Positions 18,476-29,232 of a stretch of DNA of 64,000 nucleotides are shown piece by piece. The stretch's first letter is position 1. Each line of letters opens with the position of its first letter. The stretch comes from Pseudomonas sp. MYb118 (GTDB taxonomy: Bacteria; Pseudomonadota; Gammaproteobacteria; Pseudomonadales; Pseudomonadaceae). A program made the position numbers and the translations under genes. The stretch lies in the NCBI RefSeq assembly GCF_040947875.1, contig NZ_JBFRXN010000002.1, positions 992,001 to 1,056,000 of the forward strand. Reading direction: 5' to 3'. The notes under the pieces are model-generated. The model ran no database searches. It saw nothing but the letters and a program-made list of their open reading frames with translations, and was not told the origin of the DNA.

Positions 18476-20197
18476 TCAGCCCACCTCGGTGGCCGCTGTG
18501 AAGCACGCCGGCGCCAGGCAGCACTCCCCTTTCTGCGGCTCCTCACGTGAGGTCGGCGTCCACGTCTGGTCAAACAACGTCGTCAATGTCGCCTGGTGGC
18601 TGATGCCAATCACCGTGCAGGCCGGCAATTGCTCACGCAGCAGCACCAGCAGCGCCAGCGCACTGGTTTCGTCCAACTGGTTGGTGGCCTCATCCAGGTA
18701 CAACGTATCCGGTGCGTACAGCAGCGCCCGCGCCAGGCCAATGCGTTGCTGCTCGCCGCCCGAGAGTTCGCGTGCCCATTCGGCCTGATCGCCCAAGCGA
18801 GTCACCAGCCCCGGCAGGCCAACCTGATGCAGGACGTCGACCAGACGTTCATCGCCAGGAATTTGCACGGCAGGATAGGCCAGCAGGGTGCGCAATGGCA
18901 CGCTGGGCAGATAAGGCTTTTGCGGCAGCAGCAGGCTGCGCCCCGGTGGCAATCCCCAGCCCCCTCGGCAGTATGGCCAGATGCCCTGCAAAGTGCGTAA
19001 CAAGGTGGATTTGCCAATACCGCTGCGACCCGCAATCAGCAGCCATTGGCCCGGCTGCACTTGCATACGGATGCCCGCCAGCAGTACGGCGCCGTCCGGA
19101 CGCAGGACATCCAGGCCGTCAATGCACAGGCAATCGCCGATCACCGGTGACCTGGCCTGGACCCGGGTGGCAGCGATCGCCTGTTCGAATTGCCCCAGGC
19201 GTTCCACCGCCGAACTCCAGCGCATCAGTTTCGGATACAGCTTGATGAACCAGCTCAGCGACCCCTGAACGGCACTGAAGGCACTGCGAATCTGCATCAG
19301 GCCACCCAAGGTGATGGTCTTGGCGAGAAAGGCCGGCAGTGCGGCAAACACCGGGATGATCAGGCTGACCCGCTCGTAGCTGACGACGAACAGGCTGAGG
19401 TTGCGTTCACGCCCCATCAGCTGTCGCCAATTGCGCGCGATGGCGCCGAAGCGCTCGGCCAGGTGCTGGCGCTCCACCGCCTCACCGCGATACAACGCGA
19501 TCTGCTCGGCATGCTCACGCTTGCGCAACAGGCTGGCACGGAAGTCCGCCTCGAAGTGCTGACGATCCACGTTCAAGCGATGCAGCGGTTGGCCAACCCA
19601 GTGGGTGATCAGACTGCCCGCCAGGGTATAGAGCACCACGATCCACACCAGATAGCCAGACAAGGTGACGCTGTAGCCACCCAGGGTGAAGGTCTGCACT
19701 CCCGACAATTGCCAGAGGATGCTGATGAAGGCCCCCACCTGCGCCATGTTGATGATGAACGACGCCACCAGCTCCACGCTGAGGTCGGTGACGATGTCGA
19801 CGTCTTCGGCAATCCGCTGGTCGGGGTTATCCGGCTCGCCCGCAAGGCCCAGACGATAGAACGCCTGGTCCGTCAGCCACGCGTGGGTGAACCGTTCGGT
19901 CATGGCCTGCCGCCAGCGCATCACCAGCGCCTTGCGCACCCAGTCCAGGGTCACGACGATCAACACATAGGCGCCCAGGTACAAGGCATAGCGGCCCATC
20001 AATGCATACAGGGCGTGGGTGTCGAACTCGCCGAGGGTGTCGTAGAAGGTCTTGCTCCAGGCGTTGATCAGCACGTTGATCTGCACGATCAGCAGGCCCA
20101 TGCCGATGATGCTGGCCAGCATTAGCCAACCCAGCCACTGTCCGCCATTACGCCAGAACGGCGCGGCGAGGCGGTAAAAGGTGCGCAAGCTGTTCAC
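18476..20197 (-). CDS. SbmA/YddA-type ABC transporter, fused membrane and ATPase domains (FusD-like)
   Basis: A 573-residue half-transporter. The N-terminal membrane domain (residues about 1-330) is of the SbmA/BacA type. The ATPase domain has Walker A GRSGIGKSTLL, signature LSGGEQQRIG and Walker B LYLDEATNQLD. SbmA/BacA relatives import peptides; E. coli YddA sits next to yddB (TonB receptor) and pqqL (M16 protease), exactly as here. The GTG start overlaps the stop of the protease gene (GTGA), indicating coupling. It is the last gene of the iron-regulated locus. Peptide import of protease products is my inference. Confidence 0.85.
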   Translation of the reverse strand: MNSLRTFYRLAAPFWRNGGQWLGWLMLASIIGMGLLIVQINVLINAWSKTFYDTLGEFDTHALYALMGRYALYLGAYVLIVVTLDWVRKALVMRWRQAMTERFTHAWLTDQAFYRLGLAGEPDNPDQRIAEDVDIVTDLSVELVASFIINMAQVGAFISILWQLSGVQTFTLGGYSVTLSGYLVWIVVLYTLAGSLITHWVGQPLHRLNVDRQHFEADFRASLLRKREHAEQIALYRGEAVERQHLAERFGAIARNWRQLMGRERNLSLFVVSYERVSLIIPVFAALPAFLAKTITLGGLMQIRSAFSAVQGSLSWFIKLYPKLMRWSSAVERLGQFEQAIAATRVQARSPVIGDCLCIDGLDVLRPDGAVLLAGIRMQVQPGQWLLIAGRSGIGKSTLLRTLQGIWPYCRGGWGLPPGRSLLLPQKPYLPSVPLRTLLAYPAVQIPGDERLVDVLHQVGLPGLVTRLGDQAEWARELSGGEQQRIGLARALLYAPDTLYLDEATNQLDETSALALLVLLREQLPACTVIGISHQATLTTLFDQTWTPTSREEPQKGECCLAPACFTAATEVG

Positions 20198-22980
20198 AGG
20201 CTGTCCTTGGGCAGTACGCGCAGTTGCACCTGGTTCTCCACCGGGAACAGCCGGGTGGCCAGGGGCTTGAGCAGGTCAATGCGCATGCCGTCGACCAGGT
20301 TGGCCTGGCTGCTCAGGTAACGTGGGTCCTGCCACTGCCGTTCGCTGAGCTGCAACCGCCGCCATTGCACGGCGGGGTCCGTGCGGCGCTTGCTTTCCTC
20401 ACGACGCAGGTGGCTACGCTCATTGGCGACCCAAGGTGCGTCTACCGCTTTATCCAGTTGCGCCAGGGTCTGGCGGGCCATCGCCCAGAGCTCGTCGGTA
20501 CGTTGCGGGTCGCAGGTGAAACTCAGTTGGCTTTCGATGCGCTGGGTCTGCGGGTTGAGCTCGCTGTCGAAGCGCAAGCGATACACCCCGGATGCCTCAC
20601 CGCGCAGGCGCTGCTTGAGCTTCTGGTTGGCCAGCTCGCGCAGGGCTGCGACACGGGCAGCCGCCTGGGGTGTCCAGGTGTGTTCGCTGAAGCTGCTGGC
20701 CTGGATGACCACCCGTGGTTCGAGGGCGATGGCCAGGTCGGCCCGACGTTGCCCGACGCTTTGCAGCGTGGCGTGCACAGGCAGCGCCTCGCGGCGCGGG
20801 ATGTTCGCCAACTGCTCGCGCACGGCCGTCTCGAGCACGCTCGGCTCGATGTCCGCCATCAGGTAGTACGTCACCTGCGATTGCGCCAGTTGTTGCCAGT
20901 CCCGGGTCAGCAGCGTGGCATCCAGGGCCCGCAACGCTTGCTCATCCGGGTTTTGCCAAATGTCACTGCCGTAGCGCAACTGCCGCTCGGCAGTCGCCTG
21001 GCGGGTGCGGACATCGTCGGGCCGGGTGCGCAGGCGCTGGAGCAGGTCATCCCGGGCAGCGCTGAACAGATCGTCGTCGATCACCGCCCCCACCTGGCTC
21101 TGGCGATAGCTTTGCAGCAGGGACTTCAAGGCCGCTGCGTTGGGTTGGCTGGTGGCGCTCAAGTGCAAGCGCGTGGCGCTCTGGTCCAGGCTCAGGCTGG
21201 CTCGCTGCAGCTTGCGCCAGGCCTCCAGGCTGTCGGCCGCGACACCGGCGGGACCACTCTGGGCGCCCAATTGCGCCGCCATTTGCAGACGCCAGGCCGG
21301 CGCATCGCTGCGGTTGAAGCCGGCGGACGACTCGGCTTGCAGGCGCCACTGGCCGGCTTCGGCGTTACGCTTGAGCCAGACCAGCTTGTCGCCGTTGGAC
21401 AAGGTCCAGTGCTGCACCTGTTCCGCCTCGAACACACGACGGGAGACCACATCGCCCGGTGCCTCGACGGCCTGCGGGGTGAAACTGGCCACCTCGGGTT
21501 CGGCTGCCTCGGTGGCAGCGGGTGCAGGCAAAGAGGTGCCGGCCAGGGTATCGCGCAACTGCTGCACATCGGTTACCGACGGCAAGCGCACCGTGCTGCT
21601 GCCCGGCGCGGTCACTTGCAATACCTGGTCCGGGCTGTCGATCCAGCGGCGCAGCCTGGCGTTGAGGTCGGCGCGATCGATGCTGTCGAGCACCTGCAGG
21701 TAACGCCGGGCGATCTGGTGGGGGGCGGCAACCGCGCGGTTCTGCACCGCGGCATCGTTGAGGCTGTTGACCCATTGCTCGAAGGTGCGCGATTCATCCC
21801 TGGCCAGCATGCCATTGGCCACTCGACGAATGTTCGCTTGCTCGCTGCTCAGGTCCGCCTCACTCAAGCCGTGTTGGCGCAGGCGCTCGAGTTCGGTCAA
21901 AAGCTGTTTCAGGGCCACGTCGTGATGAGCGCCGTCAACGCCGGCGGCCACCCCCAGCACGGTGGAGTACTCACCAATCAGGGTCTTCTGCGCCGTCAGG
22001 CTACGCACTCCGTCCTGCCGAGGTTGGCGACGCAGTTCCGCGACCAGCGCGGCCAGGGTCAGCCGATCGATCAGGCGCTCGCGCATGGCCTGCGATGTGG
22101 AGCCACGGCTGTCCGGCTCATGCAGACGAAACAGCAACGACACCTGGTTGCTGCCCGATTGCGGGTCTTGCAGACGGAAGATTTTCAGCTGGCCATCAAG
22201 GGTCAGTTCGCGGTGATCGCGCTCAGGCAGTGGCTTGGCTGGCGCTGCGCCGAACACCTGTTGAATCTGCTGCTTCAGGGCCTGCGGTTCGAAATCGCCG
22301 ACCACCGACAGAATCATGTTGTTGGGCACATACCAGCGCTGTTGAAAGCGCTGCAACGCCGGCAACGAGGCCGCGCGAATGGCCGCCTCGTTGCCGATGG
22401 TGCGGTGTTCGGGGTAGCGCGAACCGACACGCTGTGAGGCCGCGCGCTGGTCATTCATGCGCTGGGCCACGCCCAGCCCACCGCGCCACTCTTCGATGAC
22501 GATTGGCCGCTCACGCTCAAGATCGGCCGCCGTGTAGTCACCGGCAAACGCCAGCTGCGCGAGTTTTTCCAGGGCCTGCGCAGCGTGCCGGGTTCCGGCG
22601 TTGGGGCTGAGCAGGTATTGCGTGCGGTCGTAGCTGGTGACGGCATTGTAGTTACGCCCCTGCACCCAGCCCAGTTCGCTCATCTGTTGCCGCAGGTTGC
22701 GATCCAGGCCGGCGCGGCTGTGGAACGTCAGGTGTTCGAGCATGTGGGCCACGCCCACCTGGTCGTCGTCTTCATCGACGGAGCCGGCGCGCACGGTCAG
22801 GCGCAGGTCGAGGCGACCCGCCTGGCTGCTGTCGCGCACCAGGCGGTATTCCAGGCCATTGGCCAACTGCCCGCGCACGATTTGCGGCGACCAGGCCAGG
22901 GGCGTGTTGTCTTCGTTGGGCGGCGATGCGCAGGCACACAGCAGCAGCGGGCCAAGCAGGCCGGCAAGGAGCTTTTTCAT
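20194..22980 (-). CDS. M16-family zinc protease lipoprotein (PqqL/FusC-like)
   Basis: A 928-residue protein, the length of E. coli PqqL. It starts with a lipoprotein signal (LLLCACASPP, lipid Cys17). The inverted zinc motif HMLEH (79-83) and ERERPIVIEEWR (155-166) about 75 residues later supply the zinc ligands and catalytic Glu. The second half is the usual inactive M16 repeat pair. FusC of Pectobacterium cleaves imported plant ferredoxin to free its iron; PqqL is its E. coli homologue. The ATG 22980 is set by the signal peptide and AAGGAG just upstream; the longer open frame overlaps the receptor gene. It is 34 bases from the receptor and overlaps the ABC gene. Confidence 0.88.
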   Translation of the reverse strand: MKKLLAGLLGPLLLCACASPPNEDNTPLAWSPQIVRGQLANGLEYRLVRDSSQAGRLDLRLTVRAGSVDEDDDQVGVAHMLEHLTFHSRAGLDRNLRQQMSELGWVQGRNYNAVTSYDRTQYLLSPNAGTRHAAQALEKLAQLAFAGDYTAADLERERPIVIEEWRGGLGVAQRMNDQRAASQRVGSRYPEHRTIGNEAAIRAASLPALQRFQQRWYVPNNMILSVVGDFEPQALKQQIQQVFGAAPAKPLPERDHRELTLDGQLKIFRLQDPQSGSNQVSLLFRLHEPDSRGSTSQAMRERLIDRLTLAALVAELRRQPRQDGVRSLTAQKTLIGEYSTVLGVAAGVDGAHHDVALKQLLTELERLRQHGLSEADLSSEQANIRRVANGMLARDESRTFEQWVNSLNDAAVQNRAVAAPHQIARRYLQVLDSIDRADLNARLRRWIDSPDQVLQVTAPGSSTVRLPSVTDVQQLRDTLAGTSLPAPAATEAAEPEVASFTPQAVEAPGDVVSRRVFEAEQVQHWTLSNGDKLVWLKRNAEAGQWRLQAESSAGFNRSDAPAWRLQMAAQLGAQSGPAGVAADSLEAWRKLQRASLSLDQSATRLHLSATSQPNAAALKSLLQSYRQSQVGAVIDDDLFSAARDDLLQRLRTRPDDVRTRQATAERQLRYGSDIWQNPDEQALRALDATLLTRDWQQLAQSQVTYYLMADIEPSVLETAVREQLANIPRREALPVHATLQSVGQRRADLAIALEPRVVIQASSFSEHTWTPQAAARVAALRELANQKLKQRLRGEASGVYRLRFDSELNPQTQRIESQLSFTCDPQRTDELWAMARQTLAQLDKAVDAPWVANERSHLRREESKRRTDPAVQWRRLQLSERQWQDPRYLSSQANLVDGMRIDLLKPLATRLFPVENQVQLRVLPKDSL

Positions 22981-23014
22981 CAGGGTATCCAGGCTAATCA
23001 GGTCACGGGAAAAA

Positions 23015-25840
23015 TCAGAAGCGGTAGCCGACTTCCAGCCAGTACTGGCGGCCAACTTCGTAGCTGACGGTGGCCGAACTGCCACTGCCGACGATCTCGT
23101 TGACCTGGTCGGTGACGTTGGTGATGTCAACGGCGGCGAATAGCGCCTGGTCCTTGCCAGTGGGAATGTCCCAGCTGACGCGCATGTCCCACGTCGGCGC
23201 GGCCTTGACCTTGGCGGTGTCGTACACCACCAGGTCCTCACCGTGGTCGGTGACGGTCTCGCCGGTGTCGATCAACTGGTCGTAGGCACCGCGATAACGC
23301 AGGAAGTTACTGACGGTCAGGTTCCACTGCGGGATCTCGGTGATTGCCGTCAGGCGTGCGGTCCAGGGACGGTTGAAGTCGCTGGCCGGCAAATCGCTGT
23401 AGGCGATGCGCTTGCCGTCGAACATCACGTCGCCGTTCACGTATTGATCGGCGGTGATGCCCGACTCGTAGGTGCCGTAGGCATCCTTGGTGCGGGACCA
23501 GTCGAAGGCCATCTGCAGGCTGGTGCGCGTGCCCAGCCACTTGAGCTCTTCAAGGGGGGTGATGCTCAGCGTTATGTTGTCGCTCTCGCTGGAAGCCTTG
23601 TTGTTGTAGGTGTAGTAGATGCTGTCAAAACCCTCCTCCGGGCCCAGGCCCATGACCCGGGAGGACGACTTGCCGATCTTGTCCTTGCCGTCGCGGTGCA
23701 CGTACTTCAGGCGAAACTCGGTGTCGAGCCAGCGCTGGTCGACCCCCAGGGTCCATTCATCGTCATAGGGCACCTTGAGGTCGGTGAACTTGTTCAGGTT
23801 CTCCACCTGAGTGGCACGCCAGGCGCCGGTCTGCGTGGTGCGGGTGTACTGCGTGTTGAACCCCTGGCGGCCCTCGGCCAGGCGGTACTTGAACAGGTTG
23901 CGCCCGTAATAGCGGTTGGCGCCGAACACCAGCACGGTGCTGCGATCCCCGAAGAAGTCATAGTCACCGGCGAAGCGCGGCGCCAGGTTGGTCTTGCCCA
24001 TGTAGTCGTCGTTCTCCAGACGCAGGCCGGGGCGCAGGCCAAGCTTGCCGAACTGCATGGCATCTTCGACGAACAACGCATATTTGTTTTCGGTCATGTC
24101 GAGCTTGCCGGCGCCGTATTCCAGGCGGCTGCTTGCCCACTGGCGGGTGTTGCCATTGAGCAACTGGCCGACGGAACACAGGCTGTCGTTGTTGGCGCAG
24201 GTGGCCACGTTGTCGCGGCGGTTCATGGTGGCAGAAGTGGCCATGGTGTCGCGCTCCCAGGTGGCCTGGTTGCGCGTCAGTTCAAGGCCGCTCACCACCG
24301 CATGCTCGGCACCAGCCCAGTTGAATCCCTGCCAGTCCGCCTTGAGTTTGTAGTTGATGGTGCGCTGCGTTTGCTCAAGGTTGCCGAAAGAGCCTTCACC
24401 GCTGCGCGAGGTGTTGGAGGTCGGGTTGCCCCAGTTCTTGACGCTGGAGTAATACCAGGCAATGACGTCGTTGGATTCGGTCTCGCGCGAACTGTTGAGG
24501 TCGCCCAGCGCCAGCGTGTGCGACCAGCGCGCCGTATCCCCTTCCCACACCGCCTTGAGCGAACCCTGCCAGCCACCGTTGATGTTGGTGAAGCCGGAAT
24601 TGAGGTAGTTCTCGCGAAAGTAATAGTTTTCCTGGGGCGCCTGGATGAACGAGGCGTCGAGGCTCAGGCGATCACTGACGTTCCAGTAGGTTTTGACCAT
24701 GTAGTTGTCGAGCTGGCGGGTCTGGTCCTTGCTGCTGTCGGCGTTCGGGCTGTTGTAGCCGCCAGCGTAGACATTGAGCGGAATGGTCGAGCGCTTCTGG
24801 GAAAAACTCAGGATGCCGCCGAAGTCCTCGGTCAGGTGCCCTTCGAGCATGCCGCGCACCGTGGTCTTTTCGAACTCGGGCTGGTACTGCTCGCTGGAGG
24901 CGTTGTCGAAGCTGGCCTGGTCCTGTTCGGTGATGTGGTATTTGGTCCACGCCGACCGGCTCATCGAATAGGACACCTTGCCGTGCAAATCCTGGCTCGG
25001 GCGACGCGTGATGGCGTCGACCACGCCACCGTTGAAACCACCGTACTCGGCGGGCACGTTGCTGTCGTAGACCTTGACCTCTTCCAGGAGGTCGGCGTCC
25101 AGGGCAATGCCATGGGAGCGGCTGGGCGCTGCGTCGAATTGACGGGTCTCGCCAAAACCATGGGCGCCGGGGTCCAGGTCGTTATTGATCGAGATGCCGT
25201 CGATCATGAAATTGTTCTGGTAGAACTTGGCGCCGTTGATGCTGATGTCCGCCGGGTCGATTTCCCCCGGGGCATTGGAGTTCTGCTGATCGCTGCTGAA
25301 CTTCACGTTGGGGTGCATCTTCAGCAAGGTGGTGATGTCGCCATTGGCACCGGGAAACGCCTGGATCGCCTTGTGATCGATCACCGTGGCGCCCTGGTAG
25401 GAGTTCTCCCGGGTGAAGCCGAGCACGACTGTGTTATCCAGCTCCATGGGCTGGTCGACACCGGCCTCGGGCAGGCGATGAAACACCAGGGTGTCGCCTT
25501 CATAACCCCAGCCGATACCGGTGCCCTGCAGCAGATAAGCCAGGGCCGCATCGTTGCTCATGGCACCGTTGACGCCTTTGGAATTCACCCCCTTGAGCAG
25601 TCGTGGGTCGACGCTGATCTGCACGCCACTTTGCTGGCCGAACGCAATCAAGGCGGCGGCCAGAGGTTGCGCCGGGATACTGAAACCGGCGTTGGTGACA
25701 GGCGTATCCGTTTGCGCCAGTGCCAGGGGTAGCGGTCCGAGCGCGCAGCAAAGCCCCAGCAGGCCGGCGGCCGCGCCTTTTTTCAGGCGCAGCGGCCACA
25801 CGCCTGGAGTCCCAGGCAAGCGGTCAAGGGTGTGTGTCAT
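23015..25840 (-). CDS. TonB-dependent receptor with N-terminal STN signalling domain (FusA/YddB-like)
   Basis: A 941-residue outer-membrane receptor. A signal peptide ends near ALAQT (about residue 43). Residues about 50-120 form an STN domain (starting FSIPAQPLAAALIAFGQQSG), the part that signals to FecR. The plug follows (DISINGAKFYQNNFMIDGIS) and then a 22-strand barrel ending in the terminal aromatic residue (WLEVGYRF). It is followed by the M16 protease and ABC genes. The ligand is unknown; the protease neighbour points to a protein or peptide cargo rather than a siderophore. Confidence 0.9.
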   Translation of the reverse strand: MTHTLDRLPGTPGVWPLRLKKGAAAGLLGLCCALGPLPLALAQTDTPVTNAGFSIPAQPLAAALIAFGQQSGVQISVDPRLLKGVNSKGVNGAMSNDAALAYLLQGTGIGWGYEGDTLVFHRLPEAGVDQPMELDNTVVLGFTRENSYQGATVIDHKAIQAFPGANGDITTLLKMHPNVKFSSDQQNSNAPGEIDPADISINGAKFYQNNFMIDGISINNDLDPGAHGFGETRQFDAAPSRSHGIALDADLLEEVKVYDSNVPAEYGGFNGGVVDAITRRPSQDLHGKVSYSMSRSAWTKYHITEQDQASFDNASSEQYQPEFEKTTVRGMLEGHLTEDFGGILSFSQKRSTIPLNVYAGGYNSPNADSSKDQTRQLDNYMVKTYWNVSDRLSLDASFIQAPQENYYFRENYLNSGFTNINGGWQGSLKAVWEGDTARWSHTLALGDLNSSRETESNDVIAWYYSSVKNWGNPTSNTSRSGEGSFGNLEQTQRTINYKLKADWQGFNWAGAEHAVVSGLELTRNQATWERDTMATSATMNRRDNVATCANNDSLCSVGQLLNGNTRQWASSRLEYGAGKLDMTENKYALFVEDAMQFGKLGLRPGLRLENDDYMGKTNLAPRFAGDYDFFGDRSTVLVFGANRYYGRNLFKYRLAEGRQGFNTQYTRTTQTGAWRATQVENLNKFTDLKVPYDDEWTLGVDQRWLDTEFRLKYVHRDGKDKIGKSSSRVMGLGPEEGFDSIYYTYNNKASSESDNITLSITPLEELKWLGTRTSLQMAFDWSRTKDAYGTYESGITADQYVNGDVMFDGKRIAYSDLPASDFNRPWTARLTAITEIPQWNLTVSNFLRYRGAYDQLIDTGETVTDHGEDLVVYDTAKVKAAPTWDMRVSWDIPTGKDQALFAAVDITNVTDQVNEIVGSGSSATVSYEVGRQYWLEVGYRF

Positions 25841-25917
25841 GCAAAGATCCCCGCGCCGGTTATTACCGGCCAGTCAATGAATACGAATACATCTCAATTG
25901 CTGCGCGCGGGACAGAA

Positions 25918-25941
25918 GACGGGACAGCTCGAAGGATTTTC
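25918..25941 (-). promoter_or_regulatory. Candidate ECF-sigma promoter of the receptor-protease-ABC operon
   Basis: On the minus strand GAAAAT is followed after 14 bases by CGTC, similar to iron-starvation sigma promoters though with a short spacer. It is about 80 bases before the receptor start, downstream of the fecR terminator. Confidence 0.3.
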
Positions 25942-25972
25942 AGAAAAAAATGAAAATAATTTCAGAGGGCAC

Positions 25973-25998
25973 AAAAAAGCCCGCTCCGGGAGCAGGCT
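25973..25998 (-). terminator. Intrinsic terminator after fecR
   Basis: On the minus strand AGCCTGCTCCCGGAGCGGGCT forms a stem with one mismatch and is followed by six T. It separates the sigma-fecR message from the receptor operon. The rest of 25841-26050 is AT-rich leader. Confidence 0.8.
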
Positions 25999-26050
25999 GA
26001 TTGGCTGACATGATCAGGTACATGAACCCGGCGAATTCGCCCGGCAAGGC

Positions 26051-27028
26051 TTACCGGCTGAGGACAAACAACCAAGGGCTGTAGCGACTGACCTTGGCAC
26101 CGGAGGGCTTGAGGATCGCTTGCAGCGCCGCCTGGGGCTTGCGCAGGTCGTAGACCCCGGTCACGCGTTGTGCGCCAAGATCTGCATCGTTCAACACGAT
26201 GAGCCCTGGCACGTAGCGACGAAGCTGCTCGACCACCTCGCTGATCGGCAGGTCATCTGCAATCAGTTGTCCCTGGCGCCATGGCGCGGCCTGGGTGGGG
26301 GCGAAGGTGGCAAGGTCGGCCTGCCCGCCGCGATAGCTCAGGCGCTGCCCGGGAACGAGGCTGGCCAGGGCACGACCGGCCTGCCAGTCCTGGACATTGA
26401 CCGAACCGTTTTGCACCGCCACGCTCATGCCGTCCCGATCCAGGTCGACGTTGAACGCCGTACCGGTCACCGTGATCTGCATGGCCTTGGCTCGTACGTG
26501 AAACGGCCGGCTCTTGTCCGGCGTCACCTTGAAAAACGCCTGCCCCACCAGCAGTCGAACATCGCGGCGCTGACCGCTGAAGTCCACGGCAATGGCCGAG
26601 TGGCTGTCCAGCTGCACCACGCTGCCATCGCTCAGGGTGACATCACGGGTCTCGCCCGAGGCGGTCCGGTAATCGGCCTGCCAGCCAAGGATCAGGCTGG
26701 GCGCCAACGCCACCACCAGGCATGCGGCAATCGCCGCCGCCACCCAGCGACGCACCCGACGTGGGCGGGCAACCAGGCGTGGCTGCGCCGTGTTCGCGGC
26801 GATCGGGGCCGTGGCAGGAGACCCGTTTTCGGAGGTAGCCGGCGCCAATCGCCCGGTCAACTGCCACACCCGTTCAGCCTTGCCATAAGCCTTGGCATTG
26901 GCCGTGTCGGCCTCGCACCACTGAACGAATTGCGCGCGCAGGACCTCATCGGCCGGTGCCTGCTGCAACCGCAGCAGCCAGTCCACGGCCTGGTCCCGAC
27001 GGGCGTTGGCGCCATCCTCAAGGGGCAT
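26051..27028 (-). CDS. FecR-type anti-sigma factor / sigma regulator
   Basis: A 325-residue inner-membrane regulator. An N-terminal DUF4880 segment (ARRDQAVDWLLRLQ) binds the sigma factor. One transmembrane helix lies near VAAAIAACLVVALAPSLILG. The periplasmic FecR domain (TASGETRDVTLSDGSVVQLD) and a C-terminal STN-like part contact the receptor. I prefer ATG 27028 because GGAGAAGG is 7 bases upstream. An alternative ATG at 27145, overlapping the sigma stop, would add 39 residues and also has a GGAG. It is followed by a terminator. Confidence 0.9.
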   Translation of the reverse strand: MPLEDGANARRDQAVDWLLRLQQAPADEVLRAQFVQWCEADTANAKAYGKAERVWQLTGRLAPATSENGSPATAPIAANTAQPRLVARPRRVRRWVAAAIAACLVVALAPSLILGWQADYRTASGETRDVTLSDGSVVQLDSHSAIAVDFSGQRRDVRLLVGQAFFKVTPDKSRPFHVRAKAMQITVTGTAFNVDLDRDGMSVAVQNGSVNVQDWQAGRALASLVPGQRLSYRGGQADLATFAPTQAAPWRQGQLIADDLPISEVVEQLRRYVPGLIVLNDADLGAQRVTGVYDLRKPQAALQAILKPSGAKVSRYSPWLFVLSR

Positions 27029-27137
27029 GAATGAGCCTTCTCCATTGGCAAAAATCGGCGGGCAGGATCCCACGGATTCGCCCTTCACTGCAAAAGACGC
27101 ATTGGCGCTGGTTTTTTTCAGAAACGACGGCGATCGG

Positions 27138-27641
27138 TCAGTCATCGTCTGGCTCCAGGCAATCCAGGCAATGGCGCAGCGCATCGTGCACCAGCTGATG
27201 CACCAGCGCCGTGGAAACTCCCAGGGCACTGGCAACCTGTTGCAGGGTGTAGCCGCCCAGGCGATGCATTTCGAAGGCACGACGGGTGCGTTCCGGCAAT
27301 TGGGCCAGGGCTCGCTCGATGACTTCCAGCTCGTTCTGGCTGCTGACTTCGTGCTCCGGCGAGGCGCTGCTGGAGGGCAGGTCATCGAGCAATTCGTCCC
27401 CGCCCGGCTGCACCCGTTCGGTGGCGGTACGCCGCGTCAGGTCGAGGGCGAGGTTGCGCACGATGCGATACAGGTAACTGGCCGGATGACGGATATCGAG
27501 CTGCTGGTCCTGGCTGTTGAAACGCAACCACGCTTCCTGGACCACGTCTTCAGCCCGCGCACGGCACCCCACGATAGGCGCGGCATAGTCCAGCAGCGCG
27601 GCCCGGTGGGTGAGGTACAGTTGGAGTTTTGCATCCGCCAC
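27138..27641 (-). CDS. FecI-type ECF sigma factor
   Basis: A 167-residue sigma-70 family protein with only regions 2 (AEDVVQEAWLRFNSQ) and 4 (LPERTRRAFEMHRLGGYTLQ). These are the iron-starvation FecI sub-type. It would direct RNA polymerase to the receptor operon when the receptor signals through FecR. A perfect Fur palindrome lies 77 bases upstream. Its stop is close to or overlaps the FecR coding start, depending on which FecR start is used. Confidence 0.93.
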   Translation of the reverse strand: MADAKLQLYLTHRAALLDYAAPIVGCRARAEDVVQEAWLRFNSQDQQLDIRHPASYLYRIVRNLALDLTRRTATERVQPGGDELLDDLPSSSASPEHEVSSQNELEVIERALAQLPERTRRAFEMHRLGGYTLQQVASALGVSTALVHQLVHDALRHCLDCLEPDDD

Positions 27642-27717
27642 GGTGATCAGTTGCCTGCGCGCGAATGTGCCGGTTGAGCACAGACAGGGAAGTTGAAGGG
27701 CGCGCAGCTTACCTTTA

Positions 27718-27736
27718 GTTGATAATGATTATCAAC
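27718..27736. promoter_or_regulatory. Fur box upstream of the FecI-type sigma gene
   Basis: GTTGATAATGATTATCAAC is a 19-base perfect palindrome around a central G and matches the Fur consensus GATAATGATAATCATTATC closely. It implies iron repression of sigma and fecR, and through them of the receptor, protease and ABC genes. Confidence 0.88.
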
Positions 27737-27847
27737 AAGTACGGCAGTGAATATCAGTTTCACGGATAACTGGCCCCGCCATTGACCAGAGACCCATCGT
27801 CCGGATTATCTGTTCGCAGATTGCCGGCCAGGCTCACGACTGCTAAC

Positions 27848-27879: not shown

Positions 27880-28119
27880 ATGGCATCCATCAACATCCGC
27901 ATCGACGACGATTTGAAACAGCGTTCCTTTGCTGAGCTGGAGAAACTCGGAGTTACGCCCTCAGAACTGCTGCGCCAGACACTCCAGTACGTCGCAGAGC
28001 GCGGGAAATTGCCGTTCAAGGCAGCCCTGCTCAGTGAAGAAGATGAAGCCCTGATCGCCGTCGCGACAGAACGCCTTGCCGCCCCCCAGCGAGTAAAGGT
28101 AAGCCTGGATGACCTATGA
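27880..28119 (+). CDS. relB: RelB/DinJ-family antitoxin
   Basis: A 79-residue protein with an N-terminal ribbon-helix-helix (MASINIRIDDDLKQRSFAEL and VTPSELLRQTLQYV), typical of RelB/DinJ. It would neutralise the following toxin and repress the promoter through the palindrome just upstream. AGGA lies 8 bases before the ATG. It overlaps the toxin gene by 11 bases. The pair is inserted between the iron locus and the mag operon and appears less GC-rich than its neighbours, consistent with acquisition. Confidence 0.9.
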   Translation: MASINIRIDDDLKQRSFAELEKLGVTPSELLRQTLQYVAERGKLPFKAALLSEEDEALIAVATERLAAPQRVKVSLDDL

Positions 28120-28414
28120 CCTCGAATTCGATCGGCGTGCACTGAAGGAGTGGAACAAACTGGGCGATACCATCCGCCAGCAATTCAAAAAGAAACTCGC
28201 TGAAGTATTGGAAAACCCTCGCATCGAAGCCAATCGACTTCGTCAGCTACCCGACTGCTACAAACTCAAGTTGCGCAGCGCCGGCTATCGACTGATCTAT
28301 CAGGTCATCGATCGCGAGGTTGTGGTCTTCGTTATCGCCATCGGCAAGCGTGAGCGGGAAGCCGCTTATCAGGATGCACAGGACCGAATTGACGCGACGT
28401 TGCGACACGATTAG
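28109..28414 (+). CDS. relE: RelE-family mRNA interferase toxin
   Basis: A 101-residue RelE-fold toxin. Family features are FDRRALKEWNKLGDTIRQQF near the N-terminus and the basic core KLRSAGYRLIYQVIDREVVV with later GKREREAAY; these Arg/Lys/Tyr residues form the RelE active site. It would cleave mRNA in the ribosome when RelB is degraded. All expected elements are intact, so the pair is probably functional. Confidence 0.92.
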   Translation: MTYDLEFDRRALKEWNKLGDTIRQQFKKKLAEVLENPRIEANRLRQLPDCYKLKLRSAGYRLIYQVIDREVVVFVIAIGKREREAAYQDAQDRIDATLRHD

Positions 28415-28422
28415 CCCCCCCC

Positions 28423-29232
28423 TCACGGATAACTGAACCCCTTCACCAACGTCAGCTCCCCCACCGCCCGCATCGGCACCAGGAAGTTCTCGATCTTCTC
28501 GTCCGGCGTGCCCTCTTCGGTGATCACCGTCACCTGTGCCGTGGTCAGTGCCTGGGCGGCCTCTTGCTGGCCGTCTTCATCCTCGCGATAGCCGCCGCCG
28601 AAGTAGTTCACATACACCAGATACTGGCCCTTGATCGGCGCTGGCATGGCGAAGATTTCCGGGCCGTAGCCGGTGGTCACGTCGACATCCAGCGCCGCGC
28701 CGTTGGGGGCTACGCGGTCGCCGTACCAGATGTGCGCGCCGTCGGGGGTGATGAGGTGCAGGTCGAGGTCGGTGCCGTCGCTGTCCCAGGCCAGCAACAC
28801 GCGCAGTTTGGCCGGGGTCGCGCCGCCGCTACTGTTGAGAAATTGCGTGCGGTGGCGTTGCTGGCCGTCGGGGCTGCGCACTTCGACGCTGTTGCTGCCA
28901 TTGGGGAACGAGAACGGGCGGTCGAAGCGTCCGGCGGGGTCGACCTTGAGCGGCATGCTCACGCCGTTGACGATCAGTCGGCCGGGTTCGCCGGACTTCG
29001 GCGTGGTCTTGATCTGACCGCTGATGCGGGCGGTGTTGGCCTGGCCGGCCGGGGTGTTGACCGAAGAGGCCGGGTAGTTGACGGTCTGGCGGAAGTTTTC
29101 GCCTTCGCCCCCGCTCGCGCCCGTGCGCCAGCCGCCGACCAGGGTGTCGAGTTCGACAGCGCCAGCGTGGCTCGATGGCAAGGCGCCCAAGGCGCAGAGG
29201 AACAGCAAGACCTGTGGATAACGGAGTTTCAT
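28423..29232 (-). CDS. magF: MagF: DUF2135 (YfaP-like) periplasmic protein
   Basis: A 269-residue secreted protein with signal peptide MKLRYPQVLLFLCALGALPSSHA. The DUF2135 signature is LAWDSDGTDLDLHLITPDG followed by YLVYVNYFGGG. It is the last gene of the mag (yfa) operon and a paralogue of the first gene, MagA, here at 37800. The role in the alpha-2-macroglobulin complex is not established. It begins 3 bases after the magE stop. Confidence 0.88.
   Translation of the reverse strand: MKLRYPQVLLFLCALGALPSSHAGAVELDTLVGGWRTGASGGEGENFRQTVNYPASSVNTPAGQANTARISGQIKTTPKSGEPGRLIVNGVSMPLKVDPAGRFDRPFSFPNGSNSVEVRSPDGQQRHRTQFLNSSGGATPAKLRVLLAWDSDGTDLDLHLITPDGAHIWYGDRVAPNGAALDVDVTTGYGPEIFAMPAPIKGQYLVYVNYFGGGYREDEDGQQEAAQALTTAQVTVITEEGTPDEKIENFLVPMRAVGELTLVKGFSYP

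Follow-up and report, generated by a model that had tools for sequence, protein, structure and literature searches.

The stretch of DNA analysed here (the window) comprises 64,000 nucleotides of the 6.58-Mb genome of Pseudomonas sp. MYb118. Five genes on its minus strand, all of them open reading frames, encode a FecI-type sigma factor, a FecR protein, a TonB-dependent receptor, an M16 protease and an ABC transporter (Table 1). An earlier note, made from the letters alone, had claimed this gene set together with a Fur box and gene overlaps. The set and the box were borne out by the reading frames, by Pfam and by a 15/19 match to the Fur consensus, and overlaps of 8 bp (fecR with the stop of the sigma gene) and 4 bp (M16 and ABC genes) were found. 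The sigma factor also matched NCBIfam PRK07037, at 177 bits, below the cut-off of 190. A chance neighbourhood was ruled out, as the same gene order returns in relatives. Next to the Fur box, the plus strand (opposite to that of the locus) carries a small pair resembling a toxin-antitoxin system (27880-28414; a protein of 79 aa and a ParE-type one of 101 aa, PF05016), and a DUF2135 protein is encoded upstream of the locus (28423-29232, minus strand).

Table 1. Features of the locus, with positions in the window
Feature	Position	Strand	Basis and remarks
FecI-type ECF sigma factor	27138..27641	-	GTG start at 27641; Sigma70_r2 and Sigma70_r4_2 (Pfam)
FecR-type anti-sigma factor / sigma regulator	26051..27145	-	ATG at 27145; FecR PF04773 (E=3e-25), DUF4880
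FusA-family TonB-dependent receptor with N-terminal STN, 941 aa	23015..25840	-	ATG at 25840
STN signalling domain, ~residues 50-122	25475..25693	-	Pfam; N-terminal matches in the PDB; folded block in the modelled structure
FusC-type M16 protease, predicted lipoprotein, 928 aa	20194..22980	-	ATG at 22980
HxxEH zinc motif (H79, E82, H83)	22732..22746	-	Alignments; kept in 46/46 relatives
Lipobox LCAC	22930..22941	-	Predicted
FusD/YddA-type ABC transporter, SbmA/BacA-like membrane domain fused to ATPase	18476..20197	-	GTG at 20197
Fur-box-like palindrome upstream of the sigma gene	27719..27739	-	15/19 to Fur consensus
ECF-type promoter TGAAAAT-N14-CGTC before the receptor gene	25918..25942	-	Conserved motif
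Intrinsic terminator between fecR and the receptor gene	25978..25998	-	9-pair stem, then T-run

The fecR and receptor genes are separated by a terminator and, after it, the promoter motif TGAAAAT-N14-CGTC, so that the locus can be read as two units: sigma-fecR, headed by the Fur box, and receptor-M16-ABC, with a promoter of the sigma-factor type. The Fur box was scored against a consensus; Fur-box-like sites of at least 12/19 were present in 59 of 69 regions upstream of the sigma gene, a set that includes the window and related strains, compared with ~5% of shuffles. The promoter motif was taken from the window sequence and afterwards tested on relatives, a literature search having given no usable published consensus. 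It occurred at 10/11 or better with a spacing of 14 in 45 of 63 intergenic regions (window and related strains included); in 200 shuffled sets the count averaged 0.1 and never exceeded 2. Other spacings also scored (9 in 13 regions, 17 in 18 and 21 in 9), which is a sign of the relatedness of the regions; counted with a looser motif, 38 distinct spacers were seen. A scan of the 6.58-Mb genome gave seven exact matches, compared with three for the reversed pattern; the one preceding the receptor gene is the only match that clearly sits in an intergenic region leading into a gene. Four of the remainder fall within ORFs on the same strand, and the other two are not closely followed by a gene start; one exact match (L201) is ambiguous, with a start codon following inside its ORF. 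No other exact match in the genome was convincing, which suggests a narrow sigma regulon. The terminator (fold −18 kcal/mol, z −2.4; shuffles average 0.7 such sites) is not conserved, with a terminator-like site in 5 of 60 homologous intergenic regions, the window included.

The protease has Pfam matches to Peptidase_M16 and M16_C. A longer reading frame, to 23241, begins inside the receptor gene, and the ATG at 22980 yields a signal peptide. The intact HxxEH motif that the earlier note had reported was found (Table 1), and the lipoprotein state that it had also named is a prediction from the lipobox. Lipidation is likely, because a loose lipobox pattern recurs in 45 of 46 relatives (LGAC in 23, LCAC in 10, LSAC in 5, others in 7), and would, if true, hold the protease at a membrane. 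Among solved structures the best matches were 6b03 and 6brs (E = 5e-183; 6b03 over residues 19-926), followed by PqqL (3e-44). We take 6b03 and 6brs, listed in the PDB as 'putative zinc protease', to be FusC. The codes 6b03, 6b05 and 6brs were not found in the texts of PMC6071955 and PMC6793856. The protease shares 35% identity with the M16 protein of a plasmid cluster from Pantoea (order TonB, receptor, M16, ABC) that served as a stand-in for the Pectobacterium operon, and 23% with E. coli PqqL. By sequence, then, it is closest to FusC, over its whole length. The transporter was confirmed as the SbmA/YddA type that had been proposed, both by Pfam (ABC_membrane_2 / SbmA_BacA and ABC_tran) and by its identities of 50% to the ABC protein of the Pantoea cluster and 38% to E. 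coli YddA. In two relatives, L141 and L140 (the strain also represented by L040), no ABC gene was found downstream of FusC.

Pfam assigned to the receptor a Plug domain and an STN domain, the latter at E = 2e-5 and 24.7 bits, below the cut-off of 28.4. Two further results support the STN assignment: this N-terminal stretch also matches the solved signalling domains of HasR, FpvA and the pseudobactin receptor, and an alignment of 22 relatives agrees with it. When the receptor was compared with all solved structures, FusA (4zgv) gave E = 3.8e-102 and YddB (6ofr) 7e-74; the next matches, to HasR, FpvA, PupB and others, covered the N-terminal part only, at 3.5e-9 or weaker. The earlier note had proposed a structural comparison with FusA, and had named alignment with a siderophore receptor as one result that would tell against its reading. 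In an AlphaFold model built on 22 relatives (mean pLDDT 78.7), the best Foldseek match was FusA (2.5e-71, with 28% identity in the structural match), followed by YddB (3.8e-63) and then FpvA (4.6e-32). FusA and YddB are thus closest by sequence and by fold, and so far ahead that identity with a siderophore receptor was ruled out. On sequence and modelled fold, the receptor is a member of the FusA/YddB family.

A rival reading is that the receptor imports a siderophore or other small metal chelate, as most STN receptors do, with the M16 protease and ABC transporter processing a peptidic chelator. Modules of STN, sigma factor and FecR are indeed best known, according to passages of PMC9249621 and PMC11637429, from siderophore, citrate and haem systems. 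However, FusA and YddB lie ~30 orders of magnitude in Foldseek E-value ahead of any siderophore receptor, and the receptor's partner is a FusC-type protease. We consider chelate import very improbable. Instead, judged on sequence and model together, the locus is a Fus-type protease-associated import locus.

The search for co-occurring M16, STN-receptor and SbmA-type ABC genes across Pseudomonas that had been suggested was carried out on a sample of 398 genomes of the genus, using a receptor cut-off of E ≤ 1e-40 and scoring at most two candidates per genome. FusA-family receptors were found in 48 of the 398 genomes, at 49 loci with three architectures. In the 30 loci of type A the order is sigma-FecR-receptor-FusC-ABC, with the ABC gene absent in one (G160) and the pair displaced in three. 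Type B (14 loci) has sigma-FecR-receptor followed by a di-haem cytochrome c peroxidase of the CCP/MauG family, identified by Pfam scan in 4 of the 14, with which the others cluster. Type C (five loci) has receptor-ABC-PqqL with a convergent FecR-sigma pair. Thirteen genomes carry type B alone. One more, G355, carries peroxidase-type and FusC-type modules in tandem, each with its own sigma-FecR pair, which places two processing routes next to one another (L099 / L032; same contig as L139, Pseudomonas dryadis). Full-length FusC-type proteases, with at least 42% identity, were present in 30 of the 398 genomes, this one included; the next matches were a broken remnant in G025 and, at 24-25% identity, five PqqL-like proteins. 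The chromosomal surroundings differ among type-A loci, and the type-A locus therefore fits a patchy accessory system. Receptor or protease copies that are decayed or frame-broken were noted at L041/L194 (G025), L052 (G009), L048 (G305) and L105 (G343), and the system seems to have been lost in some lineages.

A linked sigma-FecR pair accompanies all 49 loci, adjacent at 46 and displaced by 9-27 kb at three: 30 FusC-type loci (27 adjacent, three displaced), 14 peroxidase-type and five PqqL-type. The signalling module, which the earlier note had described as a departure from Fus and PqqL, is therefore rightly so described and is general in the genus sample. The displaced pairs are on the same strand as the receptor gene, at 9.0 kb in G369 and G018 and 27 kb in G149; the displaced FecR of G149 is 53% identical to that of the window, with the other FecR proteins of that genome at 42% or less. 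In G369 (L191; P. cichorii contig L124), a TonB-ExbD-ExbB-phytase-TonB receptor cassette and two ORFs lie between the pair and the receptor gene, and the insert in G018 (L192) looks like it, Pfam having been run on L191. The PqqL-type pairs score low (52-62 bits) and are convergent, and their serving this receptor is an assumption. Because peroxidase-type loci carry the same signalling with no protease, signalling is not specific to the M16 pathway.

The coupling was also followed outside the genus sample. In GTDB contigs the comparison covered the best 80 of 188 relatives, which include many strains of the same sample. Both genes lay directly upstream of 68 of 76 STN-bearing receptors versus none of four STN-less ones (Fisher p = 3e-4, relatedness ignored). 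Of the other eight STN-bearing receptors, one (L186) had the sigma gene only and seven had neither gene directly upstream. Two of these seven have the pair 14 kb upstream (L130, L131), one is on the same contig as G369 (L124) and one has a FecR gene 9 kb upstream at the locus edge (L125), leaving L126, L182 (contig end) and L183. The last, from Thiopseudomonas, is a true exception, with a weak STN and no linked pair, and its genome gave no FecR relative at E ≤ 1e-30. No linked pair was found for the STN-less relatives, which include some from Halopseudomonas, Nitrincola, Pantoea, Vibrio and E. coli. Three further STN-less gammaproteobacteria, among 368 other genomes of a class sample, have no pair nearby either; in two of the STN-less GTDB genomes, a separate contig encodes a distantly related FecR (32-33%). 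An STN-bearing relative on a Rhizobium grahamii plasmid (L224) lies in a sigma-FecR-receptor-FusC cluster with no ABC match, in a region for which no genes are listed.

On a receptor tree of 38 rows, built with the STN part left out, the STN state changes five times, at least four of them on well supported branches, though several long branches meet and deep placements are unsure. The pair changes with the STN in every independent contrast counted, from three (well supported branches) to five (all branches, L189 included), too few for a sign test to reach significance (p = 0.25 and 0.125). This count leaves out L183 and L186 and treats L033 (G149) as a bearer of the pair. The gene of L189 is frame-broken, and its N-terminus runs from signal peptide to plug with no STN.

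These comparisons bear on the idea that the sigma-FecR pair is a mere neighbour controlling other genes, and the STN a relic. Such an arrangement might explain why the pair is 9-27 kb from the receptor gene in some genomes and convergent with it in PqqL-type loci, and why L183 has a weak STN without a pair. Set against this are the joint change of STN and pair in all three to five contrasts counted, the promoter of the sigma-factor type that precedes the receptor gene in 45 of the 63 regions, and the want of another convincing target in this genome. The relic was rejected on the co-variation of STN and pair across relatives, L183 excepted, and a pair unconnected with the receptor appears extremely unlikely.

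The analysis establishes which genes are present and to which families they belong, that the zinc motif is intact, that the locus has the promoter and the Fur box, and that STN and sigma-FecR pair are coupled across relatives. From these results we arrive at a reading that we regard as probable, in which a Fus-type system under cell-surface signalling would import and cleave an iron-bearing protein in a Fur-gated and cargo-induced manner. Low iron would, judging from the box, lift Fur from the sigma-fecR unit. The receptor would bind a small iron-bearing protein outside the cell, the STN domain would signal the bound state to FecR, and FecR would free the sigma factor, which would read TGAAAAT-N14-CGTC and raise expression of receptor, protease and ABC transporter. 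We infer these signalling steps from the anatomy of the locus, from its conservation and from what transducers of this kind are known to do. A general TonB presumably powers passage of the cargo through the receptor, after which the periplasmic lipoprotein protease would catch and cut it, releasing the iron cofactor. By analogy with Fus, fragments or freed Fe-S would enter via the SbmA/YddA-type transporter; this step could carry Fe-S rather than peptides, because FusD is held, in a passage of PMC13253070, to take in the freed Fe-S cluster.

A variant of this scheme has a peptide or protein cargo without iron, such as an antimicrobial peptide or a peptide nutrient, which the receptor admits, the M16 protease destroys and the SbmA-type transporter imports as fragments, iron control being secondary. 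SbmA/BacA-type transporters carry peptides and M16 proteases are peptidases, both in keeping with such a cargo. Moreover, PqqL cut none of the iron proteins tried, as the S6 Fig legend of PMC6793856 has it. However, the Fur-box-like site is conserved, and the di-haem peroxidase of the sister loci fits a redox-active metal cargo more readily than it does a peptide. We judge a non-iron cargo unlikely and retain an iron-bearing protein as the probable one. A search for the cargo by way of bacteriocin mimicry gave no evidence for it: colicin-M-family bacteriocin genes occur in 30 of the 398 genus genomes (32 matches), and no CxxxxCxxC motif of the plant ferredoxin type was found in the frames scanned at 30 colicin-M-family loci, nor in the first 110 residues of the own frame of L245. 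The proteins imported by Fus-like systems are openly stated to be unknown in the Discussion of PMC6793856.

A broader proposal, to which we give even odds, is that the imported protein is itself the inducer. FusA-family receptors of Pseudomonadaceae, Azonexus and at least one Rhizobium may serve as transducers, sensing an iron protein outside the cell and turning on the operon for its import and processing, with interchangeable processing enzymes (M16 and ABC, or a di-haem peroxidase). If so, a receptor-promoter reporter would be a direct screen for FusA-family cargoes; provided that the receptor signals, induction of one promoter would report the right cargo without the need for growth.

The assignment to the Fus/PqqL group stands, but of the two models to which the core had been likened, Fus and yddB-pqqL-yddA, the locus is far nearer to Fus. 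With the Pectobacterium system for import of plant ferredoxin (FusA, FusB, FusC, FusD) it shares the FusA-family receptor, FusC-type M16 protease and FusD-type ABC transporter. It differs in adding the STN, sigma factor, FecR and ECF-type promoter, in its protease being a predicted lipoprotein and in having no dedicated TonB, FusB. This last point had been made in the earlier note, and none of the six TonB_C matches of the genome falls inside the window. Unlike the locus here, the Pantoea relative has TonB in its cluster, and Pectobacterium is reported in part of PMC7593965 to need FusB to pull ferredoxin, which counts against the reading proposed here. A Vibrio pelagius plasmid (L225) encodes a FusC-type protease next to a TonB receptor, together with an SbmA-like transporter, ExbB-ExbD-TonB and FhuF, the last bearing the annotation siderophore-iron reductase. 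In E. coli too, the genes for ABC transporter (YddA), receptor (YddB) and M16 protease (PqqL) are neighbours, but YddB has no STN match and no sigma factor or FecR is annotated in the 20 kb inspected; Fur control of ydd/pqqL has been published (extracts of PMC6793856).

The locus very probably belongs to the same group as the Pseudomonas cluster of FusA homologues with FusC published by Grinter et al. in 2019 (PMC6793856), excerpts of which also note FusA homologues paired with a cytochrome c peroxidase in place of FusC. No mention of a sigma/STN/FecR module was found in the main text of that paper, and no link of Fus to sigma-FecR signalling was found among open-licence PMC papers. Ferredoxin, FusA, PqqL and M16 go unmentioned in the available portions of a review of ECF-controlled iron transport (PMC9249621). 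What is new relative to the published Fus clusters is thus the signalling module, although a figure or table of the 2019 paper may show the genes. The iron transcriptome of Pf-5 shows an iron response for each of the 14 sigma genes that have Fur sites, and no Fus locus is named in the sections seen of that paper (PMC3377617). An iron-responsive 'fusA' of P. plecoglossicida is called 'ferredoxin receptor FusA' in PMC8981516; its Discussion gives S. aureus as the closest structure and a strong homology to P. aeruginosa. Going by these passages, this may be elongation factor G, which has the same gene name, and it was not counted as support.

With transducers of the FecA, FpvA and HasR type the locus shares the receptor STN, FecR, a FecI-type sigma factor, a Fur box and a sigma-type promoter before the receptor gene, and the behaviour of STN-receptor, FecR and ECF sigma factor is described in passages of PMC11637429 and PMC9249621. 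Those receptors import chelates or haem, whereas the receptor here is of a protein-importing family. HasR signalling does involve a protein, HasA, but HasA stays outside, as stated in an extract of PMC9249621. If the reading proposed here is true, a protein imported whole would be a new kind of signal for TonB-dependent transducers.
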